Positions 24,756 to 46,785 of a stretch of 64,000 nucleotides of DNA are shown here, in pieces. The notes under the pieces were generated by a model. That model was given only the letters and a program-made list of their open reading frames with translations. It was not told where the DNA came from and searched no databases. The stretch covers positions 434,001 to 498,000 of the forward strand of contig NZ_JARUMJ010000001.1 of assembly GCF_036898465.1 (NCBI RefSeq). Reading direction: 5' to 3'. Every line of letters begins with the position of its first letter. Within the stretch, counting starts at the first letter, position 1. This DNA is from Streptomyces sp. B21-105. GTDB lineage: Bacteria; Actinomycetota; Actinomycetes; Streptomycetales; Streptomycetaceae. The translations under genes were made by a program, and so were the position numbers.

Positions 24756-27026
24756 TCAGGGGGTGAGCTGCCAGCTCTGGACGTATCCGACGTCGATCGC
24801 CGCACGGTCCTGGACGCGCAGCTTCCAGGTTCCGTTCACGGGCTGGGCGGAGGCGTCGACGGTGAAGGTCTGGTCGACGTTGTCGGCGGAGCCGCCGCTG
24901 CGGTTGAGAAGGGAGTGGACGGCGCCGTCGGGGCCGACGAGGTCGACGGTCAGGTCACCGCGGTACGTGTGGACGATGTTGACGTGGACCGACGTGGTGG
25001 CGGAGGCGTTGCCGTCGCGGCCGGTGATGGTGACCGGGGACTCCACGGCAGCGCCGTTGTCGGGGATGTCCACCCGGTCGGCGTTGGCGTAGATGTACGC
25101 GATCCGCCAGGTGAAGTCGTCCGAGACGGAGGCACCCGTGCTGTCCGTGACCTCGACGGTGACATCGCTGCTGCCCACGGCGGTGGGCGTCCCGGTGATG
25201 AGGCCGCTCGGGCTGATGCTCAGACCGTCGGGCAGTCCGGTCGCCTCGTAGGTGAGACCCGCGCCGGAGTTGGTGGTGTAGGCGTCCACCTGGAGGCTGA
25301 CCGCCTGGCCGACGCCGCTGGTCTGGTCCGTGATCGGGGCGACATTGACGCCGAGGGCTATCCGGCTGCCGACGTTGACGGCGGCCCAGGAGTCGGCCAC
25401 GGCGAGGTAGGTCGGGCTGTAGGCGCCGAAGAGGTCGCTCGCGGCCTGGAGGGTGGCGGTGCGGGCGCCGGCGTAATCGGTCGACGAGATCATGTACGTC
25501 GTCAGCGCCCGGTACCAGACGGCGGCGGCGTTCTCGATGCCGATGCCGGCGACCGGCCGCCCGTCGTAGGTCGGGCTGTCGTAGTCGACGCCGTTGACGG
25601 TCTTCGCGCCGCTGCCCTCGGAGAGCAGGTAGAAGAAGTGGTTCGCGGGACCCGAGGAGTAGTGCACGTCGACGCCGCCGAGGGTGGAGCTCCAACTGTC
25701 GCGGGAGGAGCCGTCCTTGGAGGGTTTGTCCATGTAACGCAGCGGGGTGCCGTCGCCGTTGATGTCGATCTTCTCGCCGACGAGGTAGTCGCCGGGGTCG
25801 GCGGCGAGGCCCGCGTGGAACTCGACGGCCGCGGCGAAGATGTCGGAGGTCGCCTCGTTGAGGCCGCCGGACTCTCCCGCGTAGGTGAGGTCGGCGGTGG
25901 CCGCGGTGACTCCGTGGCTCATCTCGTGGGCGGCCACGTCGAGGGCGGTGAGTGGGTGGGTGTTGCCCGACCCGTCGCCGTAGGTCATGCAGAAGCAGCT
26001 GTCCTGCCAGAACGCGTTGACGTAGTTGCTGCCGTAGTGGGCGCGGCTGTAGGCGGCGACGCCGTCGTTGCGGATGCCGTTGCGGCCGAACACGTCCTTG
26101 TAGTAGTCCCAGGTGGCGGCGGCGCCGAAGGCCACGTCGACGCCCGCGGTCTGACGGTCGGACGGCAGACCGTTGCCCCAGACATCGTTGTCGTCCGTGA
26201 AGAGCGTTCCGGTGCCGGACGTGCCCTGGTTCAGGTCGTACGTCTTGTGCCCGGCGCGGTCGCCGTCGACGAGCTGGTACGTCGATCCCGACAGCGTGGT
26301 GCCGAGCGGGACCGTGCCGCTGAACTGGCCGGTGCCGGTGCCGGTGTGGACCTTCTCGGCGGCGAGGATCTGCTTGCCCGTGGCCGCGTCGGTCACGACC
26401 TGGAGTTCGCTGGGGGTGCCGTCCTGCTGCACGCCCTCGACGACGGTCTCCCAGGCGAGGACGGGCTTCGCCGCTGCGGCCCACACGACCAGACGTGGCG
26501 CGCGTTCCGTCTCGGAGCCCTTGACCCGTGCGTTCTTCGCGGCCGCGAGAGCCTTGCCGGCGGCCTGGGAGGCGGCGAGCTTCGGGGTGAGTGAAGGCAG
26601 TGTGAGCGTCGCCCCGCTCGCCCTGGTCACGGTGGTCCGGCCGCTCTTGAGTTGGACGACCAGGTCGCCGCCGAGGACGGGAAGTCCGGCGTAGGTGCGT
26701 TCGTAGCGGGTGTGGGTGGTGCCGTCGGCGTCCCGGACGACGTCCTTGACGAGGAGTTTCTCCTGGGTTCCGAGGGCGAGCCGACGGGCCTCGGCGCCTG
26801 CCGTGGCCTGCGCGCTCTTGATCAGCGAGGCGCGGGCGGCCGGTGCGAGGGGCGTCGCCGCGGCGCCCGCGCGGGGCGTCTCGGTGATGCCGGCCGCGCC
26901 GGGGCCGGGGGTGGGCGCCGCGACGCCGGTGCCCGTCTGGACCCCGAGGGTCAGCAGGGTGGCGGCGGTGAGGGCGAGTGCGGTGGCGCGTCTGCGCCGG
27001 AGGACGGGGAGGTGTCGCCGGGGCAA
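24756..27026 (-). CDS. Secreted M4 (thermolysin-like) metalloprotease with P-domain
   Basis: A 756-residue preproenzyme. A TTG at 27026, 5 nt after AAGGAGA, starts a signal peptide (RRRRATALALTAATLLTLG). The FTP/PepSY propeptide contains THTRYERTYAGLPVLGGDLVV. The peptidase domain has the zinc motif HEMSH (H367, E368, H371) and the third ligand E391 in GGLNEATSD, with YSSGPANHFFYLLSEG near the active site. Next come a putative Ig-like domain (about 545-645, TYEATGLPDGLSISP) and a C-terminal P/Homo B domain ending VQSWQLTP. It digests extracellular protein. A paralogue lies at 44386-46785 and an emfourin-like lipoprotein at 28794-29387. Confidence 0.93.
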   Translation of the reverse strand: MPRRHLPVLRRRRATALALTAATLLTLGVQTGTGVAAPTPGPGAAGITETPRAGAAATPLAPAARASLIKSAQATAGAEARRLALGTQEKLLVKDVVRDADGTTHTRYERTYAGLPVLGGDLVVQLKSGRTTVTRASGATLTLPSLTPKLAASQAAGKALAAAKNARVKGSETERAPRLVVWAAAAKPVLAWETVVEGVQQDGTPSELQVVTDAATGKQILAAEKVHTGTGTGQFSGTVPLGTTLSGSTYQLVDGDRAGHKTYDLNQGTSGTGTLFTDDNDVWGNGLPSDRQTAGVDVAFGAAATWDYYKDVFGRNGIRNDGVAAYSRAHYGSNYVNAFWQDSCFCMTYGDGSGNTHPLTALDVAAHEMSHGVTAATADLTYAGESGGLNEATSDIFAAAVEFHAGLAADPGDYLVGEKIDINGDGTPLRYMDKPSKDGSSRDSWSSTLGGVDVHYSSGPANHFFYLLSEGSGAKTVNGVDYDSPTYDGRPVAGIGIENAAAVWYRALTTYMISSTDYAGARTATLQAASDLFGAYSPTYLAVADSWAAVNVGSRIALGVNVAPITDQTSGVGQAVSLQVDAYTTNSGAGLTYEATGLPDGLSISPSGLITGTPTAVGSSDVTVEVTDSTGASVSDDFTWRIAYIYANADRVDIPDNGAAVESPVTITGRDGNASATTSVHVNIVHTYRGDLTVDLVGPDGAVHSLLNRSGGSADNVDQTFTVDASAQPVNGTWKLRVQDRAAIDVGYVQSWQLTP

Positions 27027-27541
27027 CGGGTTCTCCTTCAGTGCGACGGTCGGCCGGTGATGGGGCCGAGGTGGGGCGGACCGGCGGGATGGGGCCGGTC
27101 CGGAGCGCTGCACGATTGGGGGGGTGGAAGGAGGTGGGGGGTGGGTGACAGGTGCTCCGCATGATGCGGACGTGAAGGAATGGTGAACGTCGGCAGCAGC
27201 GTGGCACCGGGTGCACAGTTTTGTCATGTGACTGCCAAGACAACGGCTTGAAATGACCATGTGCGGCTGGGGATTCCGCCTGCTCGGCACGATTTCAGCC
27301 GTCGGCGCCTCCGGATCACCCTGACCTACCGGGGGACCGGCCGGAGCAGTTCGGACGGGTAGCCCCTTGCCCCTTGCCCTCCTGTCCCCTGTCCCCTGTC
27401 CCCTGTCCCCTGTCCCCTGTGGAGCCGACCGGAACGGACTCTGCGATCCCGCGATCCCGCGATCCCGCGATCCCGCCATCCCCCGACAGCCCCGACATCC
27501 CTGCCGCCCGCCCTGTCGTGGGCGCCTGCCATCATCCTTGG
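27027..27541. other. Divergent intergenic region with two repeat arrays
   Basis: Contains the M4 protease promoter side and, near the right end, a 7-bp array (CCTGTCC, five perfect copies plus part, 27381-27420, preceded by degenerate CCCCTTG units) and an 8-bp array (GCGATCCC, four perfect copies plus one variant, 27443-27482). Both arrays are within 170 bp of the lipoprotein start. No gene seen. Confidence 0.75.
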
Positions 27542-28111
27542 ATGACACGGGCACAGACACAGGCACAGATACGGCGCCTCGTCGGCGCTCCGGTTCTTCT
27601 CGCTCTGCTCTTCCTCACCGCCGGGTGCGCGAATCCCTCGGACGATCCCCGGGCGGCCGGTTCGGCCCCTGCGCCGGCCTCGCGCTCGCCGAAGGGGTTC
27701 TGTCCGCCGCCGGAGGACACGCAGGCCGTTCCGTCGCCGTGCATCTCCGCCGACTGGGACCAGCGGGTGGCGGAAAACCACGCCTACCGTCAGCAGCAGC
27801 CCATCACCGCGGAGCAGAAGCGCGAGACCCGGCCCCGGGCGACGGCCCTCGCCGCGGTCCTGCAGAGACTCGCGGACTCGGGCACCACCGCGGACGCTCT
27901 GCGGACCGCCGCCGCCACGGCGATCGGCCTTGCGCCGGACGGGATCGAGATCCAGGGCGAGGTCCTGAAACCGTTGCACAACGTGCTCGTGGGCGGCGGC
28001 GAGGGCCGGGTGTGCGTCAACGGGGCCGTCGACGACCGCGGTCACGCCACCGCCGAGGTCGTCGGCCGCACCCTCGACGGAGCCTGCCTGCCGGGGCGGG
28101 GCGGTCACTGA
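27542..28111 (+). CDS. Lipoprotein of unknown function
   Basis: A 189-residue protein with a lipoprotein signal peptide (LLALLFLTAGC, lipidated C29). The mature part has a Cys-containing FCPPPEDTQAVPSPCIS segment, a helical middle (RPRATALAAVLQRLADSG) and GEGRVCVNGAVDD with a final GACLPG, so four Cys could form two disulfides outside the membrane. No family recognised. It sits between an M4 protease and an emfourin-like lipoprotein, so a role in the same surface system is possible but only positional. Confidence 0.6.
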   Translation: MTRAQTQAQIRRLVGAPVLLALLFLTAGCANPSDDPRAAGSAPAPASRSPKGFCPPPEDTQAVPSPCISADWDQRVAENHAYRQQQPITAEQKRETRPRATALAAVLQRLADSGTTADALRTAAATAIGLAPDGIEIQGEVLKPLHNVLVGGGEGRVCVNGAVDDRGHATAEVVGRTLDGACLPGRGGH

Positions 28112-28141
28112 CGAACGACGGTCACCGACGTACGACGCCCC

Positions 28142-28594
28142 TCACGCCGTCAGTCCGGCCGCCACTGTCGCGCCCAGTTCCCAGCAGGCCGCCAGCTCCG
28201 CCTTGTCCGGTTCCCCGGTGACGGTCACCGGCTCGGCAGCCCGGCGCCAGCCCAGACCCGTGGTGACGGCCTCGATGCCGCGCACCGCGCCGGTCACGTC
28301 GTTGCCGCCATGCACGTAGTAGCCGAAGGGACGGCCCTGGGTGGCGTCGAGGCACGGGTAGTAGATCTGGTCGAAGAAATGCTTGAGCGCCCCGGACATG
28401 TAGCCGAGGTTGGCCGGGGTGCCCAGCAGGAAGGCGTCGGAGGCCAGGACGTCGGAGGCGGTCGCGGCGAGGGCCGCTCGCCGTTCGACGCGGACGCCCT
28501 CGATCTCGGGCGCCGTCGCGCCCGCGACCACCGCTTCGAAAAGCGCCTGGCAGTGCGGCGACGGGGTGTGATGGACGATCAGCAAGGTGGGCAC
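28142..28594 (-). CDS. Flavodoxin-like NAD(P)H-dependent oxidoreductase
   Basis: A 150-residue flavodoxin fold. The phosphate-binding loop is LLIVHHTPSPHCQALFEAV, then LGTPANLGYMSGALKHFFDQ (isoalloxazine loop) and GYYVHGGNDVTGAVRGIE. This matches the FMN-dependent NADPH reductase/WrbA-like group. Start GTG 28594 places the P-loop at the usual N-terminal position. It converges with the lipoprotein gene (30-bp gap). Cytoplasmic redox role; partner unknown. Confidence 0.8.
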   Translation of the reverse strand: MPTLLIVHHTPSPHCQALFEAVVAGATAPEIEGVRVERRAALAATASDVLASDAFLLGTPANLGYMSGALKHFFDQIYYPCLDATQGRPFGYYVHGGNDVTGAVRGIEAVTTGLGWRRAAEPVTVTGEPDKAELAACWELGATVAAGLTA

Positions 28595-28793
28595 GGCACA
28601 AGACCCTGCCCGCTCCCCCGACCCCGCCGCAAGCCAGGACGCGACGGAGCCCGGCCGCGCGCGTCTCGTCCGTCCCGGCCTCCCTGGGCACCGCACGCCC
28701 GAAGCCCCCGTCCGGGCGGACCGGTTACGGTCGACGCCGTCCGGGGCACTCTGATACGACGACTGCCCGACTGTCCAGACGCGGGGGTGCGGG

Positions 28794-29387
28794 ATGCTCG
28801 CTCGGAGTGCGGCGACGATGTGCGCGGCCGGTGTGCTGGTCCTGGTCGGCTGCTCGCCCGGGGACGACGGACGCAACGCGGAGCCGGCGCACACGGCGTC
28901 CGGGACGGCGACCGCCTCTCCCGCCTCTTCGTCGTCCGCCGCGCCCACGGCCTCCCCGTCCGTTCCTTCCCCGCCCGCCTCCTCCCCGTCCCCCTCCTCT
29001 TCCGCATCGGCTGCCGCGTCCGCGCGTCCCTCGCCGGTGCCCGTCACCGGACCGGACCAGAAGCTGGTGGTGATGACCGTCAGCGGCGGGTTCGCCGGGG
29101 TGAACCAGGAGGTGACGCTCCGGGGCGACGGCAGCGTCCGTACGACCGACAAGGGCCGGTCCGCGGTGCGCGACACGACCGCGTCGCAGTTCACGCAGCT
29201 GCGCACGCTGCTCGGCGACCCCGCGCTCGACGACGTCCCCGCGTTCACGAGGGACATGGGCTCCGCGGACAGGTTCCAGTACGCCCTCCGGTTCGACGGC
29301 CGCACGGTCATGACGGACCGCTCCGCCGACGAGCCCGCCCTCGACCGTCTCATCGGCGCCCTGGAGAAGTGGCTGCCGAAGAACTGA
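28794..29387 (+). CDS. Lipoprotein with emfourin-like (M4 protease inhibitor) domain
   Basis: A 197-residue lipoprotein: signal peptide with lipobox LVLVGC (C20), a 60-residue Ser/Pro/Ala linker (30-85), then a compact domain (88-195). The domain starts VVMTVSGGFAGVNQEVTLRG (SGGFAG at 97-102) and has LRTLLGDPALDDVPAF, ADRFQYALRFDGRTV and ALDRLIGALEKWLP. This strand-GGFAG-helix-strand layout resembles emfourin, the protein inhibitor of protealysin-type M4 metalloproteases usually encoded beside its protease. Here an M4 protease gene lies 1.8 kb away. Inference: a membrane-tethered inhibitor that guards the producer's surface. Start is ATG 28794 after GGGGGTGCGGG. Confidence 0.65.
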   Translation: MLARSAATMCAAGVLVLVGCSPGDDGRNAEPAHTASGTATASPASSSSAAPTASPSVPSPPASSPSPSSSASAAASARPSPVPVTGPDQKLVVMTVSGGFAGVNQEVTLRGDGSVRTTDKGRSAVRDTTASQFTQLRTLLGDPALDDVPAFTRDMGSADRFQYALRFDGRTVMTDRSADEPALDRLIGALEKWLPKN

Positions 29388-29499
29388 CGCCCGTCCCGAG
29401 CCCGCGCGTGTCCCCGGAGTGCGCCTGGCAGACCTCGTCGCCGGTCAGGTCCTCGGGTCTGGCATCATCGGTTCGCATCCAAGGCCACGAGGGGACACC

Positions 29500-30585
29500 A
29501 TGCAGCGGGCGACGGGACGAGGAGCAGCCGCCGCTGCGCCGCGGAGCGTGGACGTGGCCCGCCTCGCCGGCGTCTCCCAGAAGACGGTCTCGCGGGTCTT
29601 CAACGACGAGCCGTACGTCTCCGCGGAGGTGCGCCGACGCGTCCTCGAAGCCGCCGAGGAGCTCGGTTACCGGCGCAACAACGCCGCCCGGGCGCTGGCC
29701 TCCGGACGGACCCGGGCCATCGGCGTGGTGACGCTGGGCACCGCCCTCTACGGTCCCGCCTCCCTGCTGATGGGCGTCGAGCGGGCCGTCCGGGACACCG
29801 GATACGCGCTCCGCGTGGTCAACACGGTGGAAGGCGATCCCGCGGGCGTCGCGGGCGCCGTCGGCTCACTCCTCGAGCAGGGCGTGGACGGCATCGTCGT
29901 CTCCGAACCGATCGACGAGCGCAGCGGCGAGGACACACAGGACGGGCAGGGCGGTGACCTCCGCCTCCGCGTCGGTGTGCCGGTGCTGGTGCTCAGTGCC
30001 CCGTCACCCGTCGTCGCCCCCAGCGTGCTGACCGCCGGACACGGCGCCGACCGGATGGCCCGGGCGGCCACCGAACACCTGCTGCGACTGGGCCATGCGA
30101 CGGTCCATCACCTCGCGGGCCCGCAACGCTGGTACGCCGCGCGGGACCGAATGGAGGGCTGGCGGACGGCACTCAGGGCCCACGGCAGAGCCGTGCCACC
30201 GGTCGTCGAGGGCGACTGGTCCGCCGCGTCCGGGTACGCGGCGGGCCGTACGTTCGCCGCGGACGGTGACGTCACCGCCGTGTTCGCCGCCAATGACGAC
30301 ATGGCGATCGGCCTGATCCGCGCGCTGACGGAGGCCGGCCTGCGGGTACCGCAGGACGTCAGCGTCGTCGGCTTCGACGACATCCCGGTCGCCGCGTTCG
30401 TGACGCCTCCCCTCACCACGGTGCCGCAACCGTTCGACGCGGTGGCGCAGGAGGGCCTCAAGCGTCTCGTGCACGCCATCGAGAACCCGGACGCGCCGCC
30501 GCTGCCCGCGAGCGACCCTCCGGTCGGCCTCGCCGTCCGCGCCTCGACCGCGGCCCCGCCCGCGCGTCGGAACCCGGCCCGCTGA
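29500..30585 (+). CDS. LacI-family transcriptional repressor
   Basis: A 361-residue regulator: N-terminal helix-turn-helix VDVARLAGVSQKTVSRVFNDE with the hinge helix NNAARALASGR, then a periplasmic-binding-like sugar domain (GVVTLGTALYGPASLLMGVE, VFAANDDMAIGLIRAL, VVGFDDIPVAAFVTPPLTTV). It is typical of repressors of carbohydrate genes. An unusual Asp/Gln/Gly-rich insertion (RSGEDTQDGQGGD) occurs in the ligand domain. No sugar genes are adjacent, so its target is not evident. It converges with the esterase gene. Confidence 0.9.
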   Translation: MQRATGRGAAAAAPRSVDVARLAGVSQKTVSRVFNDEPYVSAEVRRRVLEAAEELGYRRNNAARALASGRTRAIGVVTLGTALYGPASLLMGVERAVRDTGYALRVVNTVEGDPAGVAGAVGSLLEQGVDGIVVSEPIDERSGEDTQDGQGGDLRLRVGVPVLVLSAPSPVVAPSVLTAGHGADRMARAATEHLLRLGHATVHHLAGPQRWYAARDRMEGWRTALRAHGRAVPPVVEGDWSAASGYAAGRTFAADGDVTAVFAANDDMAIGLIRALTEAGLRVPQDVSVVGFDDIPVAAFVTPPLTTVPQPFDAVAQEGLKRLVHAIENPDAPPLPASDPPVGLAVRASTAAPPARRNPAR

Positions 30586-44385: not shown

Positions 44386-46785
44386 TCAGCCGGTGATGAC
44401 GGCCGTGTCGTCCACCACGAAGCTGGTCTGCAGCGAGGAGTCCTCGACGCCGGAGAACTTCAGCGTCACGGTGGACCCCGCGAAGGACCCGAGGCTGAAG
44501 GACTTCTGCACGTAGCCGGAGGCCGCGTTGAGGTTGGAGTACGTGGCCAGGGTCGTGGACCCGGCGGTGACCGTCAGCTTGTCGTACTGGGTGCTGCTGG
44601 TGGTCTCGGCCGTGTCGACGTGCAGGTAGAAGGTGAACGTGGTGTTGGTGCAGCCGCTCGGGATCGTCACCGACTGCGAGAGCGTGTCGGTGTGGGTCGA
44701 GCCGTAGCCGTCGAGCCAGGCCTTGTAGGAGCCGGTGCGGGCCGCCTGGCTGCTGGAGTTGGTGACGACGCCGCTGGACGCGGTCCAGGTGGTGTTGCCC
44801 GACTCGAAGCCCGCGTTGCCCAGCAGTTGCGTGGCGGTGCAGCCGCCGCCGGTGGCGTTGACCGTCCAGGTGAAGGACGCGCTGCCGGTGGCGCCCGTCG
44901 AGTCGGTCACCGTGACGGTGGTGCTGGAGGAGCCGGCCGTGGTCGGCGTGCCGGAGATCAGCCCGGTCGAGCTGCTGATCGACAGGCCGGCGGGCAGCCC
45001 GGTCGCCGCGTACGTCAGGGAGCCGCTGTTGGTGCTGCTCGCCGAGATCTGCAGGTTCACCGCCGTGCCGACCGTGGCGGTGCGGCTGCCCGGGTTGGTG
45101 ACCGTGACGCCCGTCGACGGGACCGTGATGTGCCCGCCGACGTTGATGCCCGCGAACGCGTTGCCCACCCCGGCGTACTGGGTGGAGTTGGAGCCGTACA
45201 GCGCGGCTGCCGCGTTGAGGGCGGCGGTGCGGGCGCCCGCGTAGTTGGTGCTGGACGTCATGTACGTCGTCAGCGCCTTGTACCAGATCTGCAGTGCGGC
45301 GGCCCGGCCGATGCCCGCGACGGCGACACCGTCGGAGGTCGGGCTGTTGTAGGTCACGCCGTTGATCGTCTTGGTGCCGCTGCCCTCGGAGAGCAGGTAG
45401 AACATGTGGTTCGCCGGACCCGACGAGTAGTGCACGTCGAGGTTGCCGACACCGGAGTACCAACTGTCGGCGGAGCCGCCGTCCTTGCTGGGCTTGTCCA
45501 TGTACCGCAGCGGCGTGCCGTCGCCGTTGATGTCGATCTTCTCGCCGATGAGGTAGTCGCCCACGTCGGAGGAGTTGCCGGCGGAGAACTCGACGCCGGT
45601 GCCGAAGATGTCGGAGGTGGCCTCGTTGAGGCCGCCGGGCTCGCCGGAGTAGTTCAGTCCGGCCGTGTTCGAGGTGACGCCGTGGCTCATCTCGTGGCCG
45701 GCCACGTCCAGCGAGGTCAGCGCGTGGGTGCTGCCGGAACCGTCGCCGTACGTCATGCAGAAGCAGTCGTCGTCCCAGAAGGCGTTGACGTACGACGTGC
45801 TGTAGTGGACGCGGGAGTAGGCGGCGACGCCGTCGTTCTTGATGCCGCTGCGCCCGAAGGTGTTCTTGTAGAAGTCCCACGTCACCTGGGCGCCGTAGTG
45901 GGCGTCGACGCCGGCGGTCTGCGTGTTGGAGCCGGAGCCGGTGCCCCAGGTGTCGTCGGCGTCCGTCATCAACGTGCCGGTGCCGGACGTGCCGTTGTTG
46001 AGGCTGTACGTCTTGTGCGTGCCGCGCGCGGTGTCGTTCAGCTGGTACGTCGAGCCTGACAGCGTGGTGCCGATGGAGACGGTCCCGCTGTACTGGCTGT
46101 TGCCGGTGCCGGTCTCGACGCCCTCGAACTGGGCGAGCTTCGCGCCGGTGGCGGCGTCGGTGATCACGTGCAGCTTGCTCGGGGTGCCGTCGTCCTGGAG
46201 GCCGCTGACCACGGTCTCCCAGGCGAGCTTCGGCGTGCCCTCCCCGGCCCAGATCACCTTGCGGGCGCTCTGCGCCGCCGGATCCTTCGCGTCGAGCGCC
46301 TCGGCGGCCGTCAGGGCCTTGGCCTGCGCGGCGGCCTTGCTGTACGTCGCGGTCGTGGAGCCGACGGAGACGGTACGGCGGTTGTTGTTGAAGGTCGTGC
46401 TCACGGTGCCGGCGGCGAGCGAGGCCGGGGGCGTGTGCACGACGAGGTCGCCGCCCAGGACGGGCAGACCGGCGAAGGTGCGCTCGTAGCGCGTGTGCAC
46501 GGTGCCGTCGTTGTCCTTCACGACGTCCTTGACGACCAGTTTCTCCTGGGCGCCGAGACCGAGGGTCTCGGCCGTCTGCGTCGTCCTCGCCTCGGCGCCC
46601 TTGATCAGCGTGGTGCGCTGGGCGGGCGTCAGGTCGGCCGGCAGAGCGCCGGTGCGCACGGGACCGGGGTGGGGGGCCGCGGGCTTCGCGGCTGCCGGGA
46701 CCGCCGAGACGCCGACGGCCAGGAGGGCTGCGGTGGAGAGCAGGGCCGCTCCGACCGCGGTCCGCTTGCGGGGGTTGGGTCTCAC
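44386..46785 (-). CDS. Secreted M4 metalloprotease with C-terminal beta-sandwich
   Basis: A 799-residue paralogue of the enzyme at 24756-27026. GTG 46785 follows GGAGAACGA; signal peptide AVGAALLSTAALLAVGVSAVPAAA; propeptide THTRYERTFAGLPVLGGDLVV-type segment; M4 domain with HEMSH (H364, E365, H368) and E388 in GGLNEATSDIF; then an Ig-like domain (LTYAATGLPAGLSIS). The C-terminus differs: a Cys-containing beta-sandwich (about 645-799, LLGNAGFESGNTTW, VTIPSGCTNTTFTFYLHVDTAE) like a carbohydrate- or surface-binding module rather than a P-domain. Both proteases should be secreted zymogens with the same cleavage type but different targeting. Confidence 0.93.
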   Translation of the reverse strand: MRPNPRKRTAVGAALLSTAALLAVGVSAVPAAAKPAAPHPGPVRTGALPADLTPAQRTTLIKGAEARTTQTAETLGLGAQEKLVVKDVVKDNDGTVHTRYERTFAGLPVLGGDLVVHTPPASLAAGTVSTTFNNNRRTVSVGSTTATYSKAAAQAKALTAAEALDAKDPAAQSARKVIWAGEGTPKLAWETVVSGLQDDGTPSKLHVITDAATGAKLAQFEGVETGTGNSQYSGTVSIGTTLSGSTYQLNDTARGTHKTYSLNNGTSGTGTLMTDADDTWGTGSGSNTQTAGVDAHYGAQVTWDFYKNTFGRSGIKNDGVAAYSRVHYSTSYVNAFWDDDCFCMTYGDGSGSTHALTSLDVAGHEMSHGVTSNTAGLNYSGEPGGLNEATSDIFGTGVEFSAGNSSDVGDYLIGEKIDINGDGTPLRYMDKPSKDGGSADSWYSGVGNLDVHYSSGPANHMFYLLSEGSGTKTINGVTYNSPTSDGVAVAGIGRAAALQIWYKALTTYMTSSTNYAGARTAALNAAAALYGSNSTQYAGVGNAFAGINVGGHITVPSTGVTVTNPGSRTATVGTAVNLQISASSTNSGSLTYAATGLPAGLSISSSTGLISGTPTTAGSSSTTVTVTDSTGATGSASFTWTVNATGGGCTATQLLGNAGFESGNTTWTASSGVVTNSSSQAARTGSYKAWLDGYGSTHTDTLSQSVTIPSGCTNTTFTFYLHVDTAETTSSTQYDKLTVTAGSTTLATYSNLNAASGYVQKSFSLGSFAGSTVTLKFSGVEDSSLQTSFVVDDTAVITG

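Follow-up and report, generated by a model that had tools for sequence, protein, structure and literature searches.

Does a Streptomyces lipoprotein whose end domain resembles the protease inhibitor emfourin act as the dedicated inhibitor of a secreted M4 metalloprotease encoded nearby? The question is raised by a stretch of 64,000 nucleotides from Streptomyces sp. B21-105 (contig NZ_JARUMJ010000001.1, positions 434,001 to 498,000; here called the window, whose own numbering is used below), in which the initial annotation assigned such a role to a protein that we refer to as lipo-emfourin. Serratia emfourin is soluble and carries no signal peptide. Emfourin (M4in) of Serratia proteamaculans inhibits protealysin and thermolysin, binds protealysin 1:1 at the active-site region and is encoded in one operon with its partner, an intracellular M4 protease, and its deletion harms the producer (PMC9505478). 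Here, we found that the domain of lipo-emfourin is homologous to emfourin, and that its gene is not generally linked to M4 genes. We tentatively favour, at a probability of about 0.48, the reading that lipo-emfourin is a surface-tethered emfourin-type shield against M4 metalloproteases and not the dedicated partner of the neighbouring enzyme, M4a.

Lipo-emfourin (P0001) is the 197-residue product of an open reading frame (ORF) at 28794-29387 (+), confirmed by an ORF check and by translation. The ATG at 28794 was used as the start, and alternative in-frame starts lie at 28818 and 28833. The N-terminus of the protein, MLARSAATMCAAGVLVLVGC, matches the strict Gram-positive (G+LPP-type) lipoprotein pattern, and the n-region, the hydrophobic stretch and the lipobox cysteine are all recognizable, which makes the product a predicted lipoprotein, as first annotated. 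The long linker described at that stage as 60 residues of Ser/Pro is indeed present, but we count 69 residues, consisting mostly of Ser, Pro, Ala and Thr. The placement of the protein on the outer membrane face had to be corrected: since the relatives are Streptomyces, and thus Gram-positive, the protein would lie at the outer surface of the cytoplasmic membrane. The compact end domain with its GGFAG motif (residues 98-102) and C-terminal helix was found as described; it contains ADRFQY at residues 158-163, and the helix is seen in an AlphaFold2 model built from residue 86 (pLDDT 87.3).

The emfourin identity of this domain was assessed mainly through its relatives. The best Pfam match of lipo-emfourin itself is the emfourin family PF20242, at 17.3 bits for the full-length protein and 19.6 bits for the domain alone, which is below the Pfam cut-off of 27 bits. 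All 30 aligned relatives (family alignment A1) match the same family, the best at 2.5e-6. At E<=1e-3, a profile made from 19 canonical emfourins, from which the doubtful L081 (G215) was left out, recognized 124 of 135 near relatives as well as 9 of 14 distant lipoproteins, while none of 2,980 shuffled domains was matched at this threshold (top shuffle 15.2 bits). Thus, a chance resemblance is very unlikely, and the likeness to emfourin noticed in the initial annotation, which had called for this kind of profile search, lies far above chance. The relatives listed were the best 120 of 165 and the best 120 of 219 proteins, and the 135 near relatives are those of 137 listed ones that passed a motif and length filter. 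Among the matches listed, NCBI names two close relatives, P0084 and the 188-residue P0086, 'protealysin inhibitor emfourin'. In the reverse direction, a profile of the distant lipoproteins found 13 of the 19 canonical sequences, the combined profile 11 and the narrow near-relative profile one. In hhalign comparisons, the alignment A1 reached only a middling 91% against a narrow canonical alignment, and wider alignments gave 96-98%.

Searches of the PDB were less uniform. Serratia emfourin (6zyg) was the first match of the mixed profile A5, and no emfourin was found by single-sequence PDB searches with lipo-emfourin or with a canonical Streptomyces emfourin (P0121), nor by PDB searches with profiles A1, A2 and A4, the top matches of A2 being repetitive designed proteins (E 0.0017). 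A comparison of the lipoprotein model with the 6zyg fold gave a match no better than unrelated rows.

Conservation is concentrated in two blocks. Across the 82 sequences that make up the mixed alignment, Gly98, Gly99 and Asp159 never vary, and Ala101, Gly102 and Tyr163 are almost invariant. The position of Asp159 is occupied by Asp in all 49 near relatives, all 14 distant lipoproteins and all 19 canonical emfourins, and these three groups keep the emfourin signature, which consists of the GG[FLIY]AG turn and the D-x-F-x-Y block. In the PDB match of the mixed profile, the GGFA turn and the Asp-containing loop align with Serratia emfourin, Asp159 corresponding to the Asp of GSGD in 6zyg. A study of the emfourin mechanism reportedly describes two flexible loops, one of which bears an Asp that coordinates zinc. 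The canonical Streptomyces emfourin P0121 (L001:1489-1755), encoded in the source genome, belongs to the same family and has both GGFAG and D-x-F-x-Y, and the order of secondary-structure elements in the lipo-emfourin model equals that in the model of P0141, a near relative of P0121. However, P0121 is an 88-residue, M4-adjacent protein without a signal, from which lipo-emfourin differs in these respects and by an extra hairpin. Unlike its Serratia counterpart, lipo-emfourin has a lipoprotein signal peptide with a lipobox and a long linker, and is not part of an M4 operon. As its gene is not directly beside a protealysin-like M4 gene, we prefer the label 'emfourin-domain lipoprotein' to 'emfourin operon protein'.

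We then asked how widely this lipoprotein occurs. The broad profile A4 gave a single lipo-emfourin match in each of 31 of the 121 genomes of the genus, and the narrower A1 profile found it in 22. PF20242 itself matches 111 of the 121, mostly through canonical emfourin, and 14 of 198 genomes in the phylum. A4 is sparse in the phylum (8/296 genomes): four of the matches are from the same genus and four from outside it, and one of the latter (G186) is a canonical-type emfourin also matched by PF20242. The strict lipoprotein pattern fits 25 of the 31 lipo-emfourin genomes (calls for G001, G062 and G063 were taken through loci L013, L012 and L022), and thus anchoring marks the whole branch. In four rejected cases (G001, G034, G043, G085) a hydrophobic stretch followed by Cys is visible by eye; of the two others, the gene of G120 is cut by a contig end and that of G041 lacks part of the domain. 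Counted by locus, the pattern fits 40 of 49 in one set and 8 of 12 in another. The 13 misses comprise two contig ends, two partial domains, eight near-lipoboxes recognized by eye and one plain membrane anchor, at a locus from another family of the phylum. Three loci (L040, L041, L044), judged duplicates of L022, L013 and L012, were omitted from this count and from the neighbour clustering; at L034 and L072 the domain lacks its N-terminal part. Several relatives (P0030, P0050, P0067) are recorded as 116-residue proteins that start at the linker end, a choice of start which hides their lipoprotein signal.

We also examined whether lipo-emfourin and M4 genes lie close together. M4 genes were identified by PF02868 and Pfam scans, and an M4 domain lies within 20 kb of lipo-emfourin in only 5 of the 31 genomes, namely G107, the source genome G000, G110, G013 and G062, at distances of 3.1-12.2 kb. 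Elsewhere the nearest M4 is 31-192 kb away (12 genomes) or more than 480 kb away (three), and 11 of the 31 genomes have no M4 on the lipo-emfourin contig, some of these contigs being short. At least six of these genomes (G001, G041, G046, G071, G085, G120) have a contig end less than 20 kb from the gene, so a nearby M4 could be missed there. The five linked genomes share one common neighbourhood, partly rearranged in G062. Eight of the 51 fetched loci, a set that includes the three duplicates, carry an M4: seven M4a orthologues and one distant M4 (L037). A further M4a fragment at a contig edge (L028) was found by tblastn only. A search for the window neighbours in 30 loci gave the same picture of a local M4 linkage, common to part of the family. 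Genomes with and without lipo-emfourin do not differ in M4 number (two countings disagree by one for G038 and for G046, and the later one was used). By contrast, of the first 22 lipo-emfourin genomes 21 have canonical emfourin, and in all 21 it is no more than 0.33 kb from an M4 domain; in the source genome it follows a protealysin-like M4 ORF at a distance of 21 bp. Neighbour clustering placed other relatives of lipo-emfourin in other stable neighbourhoods, such as that of nine distant members (L037, L046-L049, L051, L054, L056, L057), which contains Lon, 2-oxoglutarate dehydrogenase and a response regulator; a distant M4 is present as well at one of these loci. The proposal that the protein is a cognate inhibitor protecting its producer from the adjacent M4 was therefore not supported: there is no operon, the neighbourhood recurs in only part of the family, and most relatives have no nearby M4. 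In G120, whose assembly is fragmented, lipo-emfourin is present and neither PF02868 nor PF20242 is matched; a genuine absence of M4 there would suggest that the target is a foreign enzyme or something else.

The features of the locus are collected in Table 1. Both M4 proteases announced in the initial annotation were found, the nearer one (M4a) 1.7-1.8 kb from lipo-emfourin, start to start. The likely start of M4a is GTG 27113 or TTG 27026, and Pfam assigns to it an FTP propeptide, both M4 domains, an Ig-like domain and a P-domain; its PepSY match is weak and below the family cut-off. The likely start of M4b is GTG 46785. M4a and lipo-emfourin are encoded on opposite strands, with the genes for a putative lipoprotein and a reductase between them, and form no operon. 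The reductase gene is divergent from lipo-emfourin, with 199 bp separating their starts. Relatives of the small putative lipoprotein were found by tblastn at L008 and L009. In the source genome (9.2 Mb) the M4 C-terminal domain is matched six times. Its secreted M4 genes occur in pairs, the window pair being about 20 kb apart and a close pair lying at G000:C1:6388840-6391715 (6.39 Mb).

Table 1. Features of the lipo-emfourin locus in window coordinates.
Feature	Position	Strand	Basis
M4a, secreted M4 metalloprotease	24756..27113 (ORF to 27566)	-	Pfam; HEMSH, NEATSD; signal peptide by eye
Small putative lipoprotein, no Pfam match	27542..28111	+	ORF with Cys-terminated hydrophobic stretch; between M4a and reductase gene
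NADPH-dependent FMN-reductase-family gene	28142..28594	-	PF03358, 25.8 bits (cut-off 24)
Lipo-emfourin: predicted signal peptide, lipobox VLVGC	28794..28853	+	Translation; strict G+LPP-type pattern; Cys20 codon 28851-28853
Lipo-emfourin: linker, residues 21-89 (69 residues), mostly Ser/Pro/Ala/Thr, low-complexity	28854..29060	+	Translation
Lipo-emfourin: emfourin-like domain, residues 90-197 (108 residues)	29061..29384	+	PF20242, canonical profile, AlphaFold2
Lipo-emfourin: GGFAG turn, residues 98-102	29085..29099	+	Mixed alignments; common to lipoprotein and canonical emfourins
Lipo-emfourin: D-x-F-x-Y block, residues 159-163	29268..29282	+	Asp159 invariant in 82 aligned sequences
LacI-family regulator, directly downstream of lipo-emfourin	29419..30585	+	NCBIfam matches sub-threshold but consistent
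M4b, second secreted M4 metalloprotease	44386..46785 (ORF to 47046)	-	Pfam; HEMSH; signal peptide by eye

Several explanations may be considered for these observations. That a small lipoprotein domain merely resembles emfourin by chance would agree with the sub-threshold Pfam score of lipo-emfourin alone and with the lack of a PDB relative in the single-sequence search, but the matches of its relatives to PF20242, the canonical profile and mixed alignments, the 6zyg match and the names given to P0084 and P0086 leave this explanation with hardly any credibility. Dedicated immunity, in which the lipoprotein would act at the surface as cognate inhibitor of M4a (and M4b) and protect the producer, draws on the presence of both proteases in its neighbourhood and on the recurrence of the M4a linkage in G013, G110, G107, L009, L017, L018 and L026, along with the L028 fragment. 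G062 has two M4 genes at 12-14 kb, and an M4 within 20 kb would be expected by chance in about 2% of genomes. However, M4a is on the opposite strand behind two other genes, the linkage reflects one common neighbourhood (5/31 genomes) and not repeated independent pairing, and the stretch examined is free of M4 in 43 of the 51 fetched loci, three of which were judged duplicates. Four label changes are needed to explain the linked rows of the tree, three of them forced by well-supported branches, although a single origin of the linkage followed by losses is possible. We regard dedicated immunity as unlikely.

Somewhat less doubtful, though still improbable in our view, is that the emfourin scaffold was exported and repurposed to bind some other partner in the envelope, be it a wall enzyme, a regulator or another protease, with loss of M4 inhibition. 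A fold shared with emfourin shows no function by itself. Such a change would fit the lack of correlation between lipo-emfourin and M4 number, its presence in G120, where no M4 match was obtained, the shared Lon, 2-oxoglutarate dehydrogenase and response regulator neighbourhood of the nine distant members, and the extra hairpin and Mago-like fold of the model. On the other hand, the blocks common to canonical emfourin are the best conserved positions, which is not what one would expect of a binding face left free to drift. The conserved turn and loop suggest that the exported domain keeps the face with which emfourin binds protealysin, and the absence of any constant partner gene agrees with a shield directed at several M4 enzymes.

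For this preferred reading, a surface-tethered shield, we propose the following mechanism. The emfourin-family domain would be exported and lipidated on Cys20, and a flexible arm of 69 residues would hold it at the outside of the cytoplasmic membrane. There it would most likely capture thermolysin-like (M4) metalloproteases that reach the membrane, either the producer's own secreted enzymes after propeptide removal or those of its neighbours. The GG[F]AG turn, together with the loop ending in Asp159, might enter the active site, as happens when soluble emfourin binds protealysin, and the role would be that of a local envelope shield. A long tether and action on proteases near the membrane suit a shield against multiple M4 enzymes better than the regulation of one enzyme. 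An actinobacterial locus (L079 of G204, 2-2167) encodes a protealysin-type M4 and a C-terminal emfourin domain in one reading frame, joined by a Ser/Thr/Gly linker, with both domains above their Pfam cut-offs. This protease-inhibitor fusion supports a link between M4 and emfourin outside two-gene operons.

Streptomyces possess other exported inhibitors with which lipo-emfourin may be compared. SMPI, the Streptomyces metalloproteinase inhibitor (I36, PF03995), is an exported protein that inhibits thermolysin-like enzymes, unlike lipo-emfourin in that it belongs to an unrelated family and is secreted without a lipid anchor; the source genome has two PF03995 (I36, SMPI-type) matches, at G000:C1:334281-334490 and 5732242-5732454. 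SSI and sermetstatin, protease inhibitors likewise exported by Streptomyces, are roughly as large as lipo-emfourin. Surface lipoproteins with PepSY domains are known from Streptomyces, among them SspA of Streptomyces coelicolor, a lipoprotein with two PepSY domains for which control of a peptidase has been hypothesised (PMC4282423). In that account SspA, too, is a surface lipoprotein built of M4-propeptide-type domains, but PepSY is unrelated to emfourin, and SspA acts in sporulation septation. The restraint of extracellular metalloproteases by a Streptomyces protein is thus not a new idea, given the SspA proposal and SMPI. An extracytoplasmic emfourin branch is not described in the literature we searched, which is a weak sign that it may be new.

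The predicted fold of lipo-emfourin also resembles that of Mago nashi, a eukaryotic RNA-processing protein of the exon junction complex; the likeness is in the modelled fold only. No Mago nashi sequence match was obtained among 23 A4 members (Pfam, E<=10, filters on), and a PDB profile search with A4 returned no Mago nashi match. The whole picture, in which an extracytoplasmic emfourin branch of Actinobacteria, found as a single-copy lipoprotein in roughly one Streptomyces in four, shields against self or rival thermolysin-like proteases and in addition owes a Mago nashi fold to descent, seems to us quite improbable. If descent were true, a core protein of the exon junction would have bacterial relatives among protease inhibitors, and a eukaryotic RNA-processing protein would be tied to a bacterial family. 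The surface-anchored branch itself would show how producers of multiple thermolysin-like enzymes might protect their own envelope, alongside inhibitors of the SMPI type.

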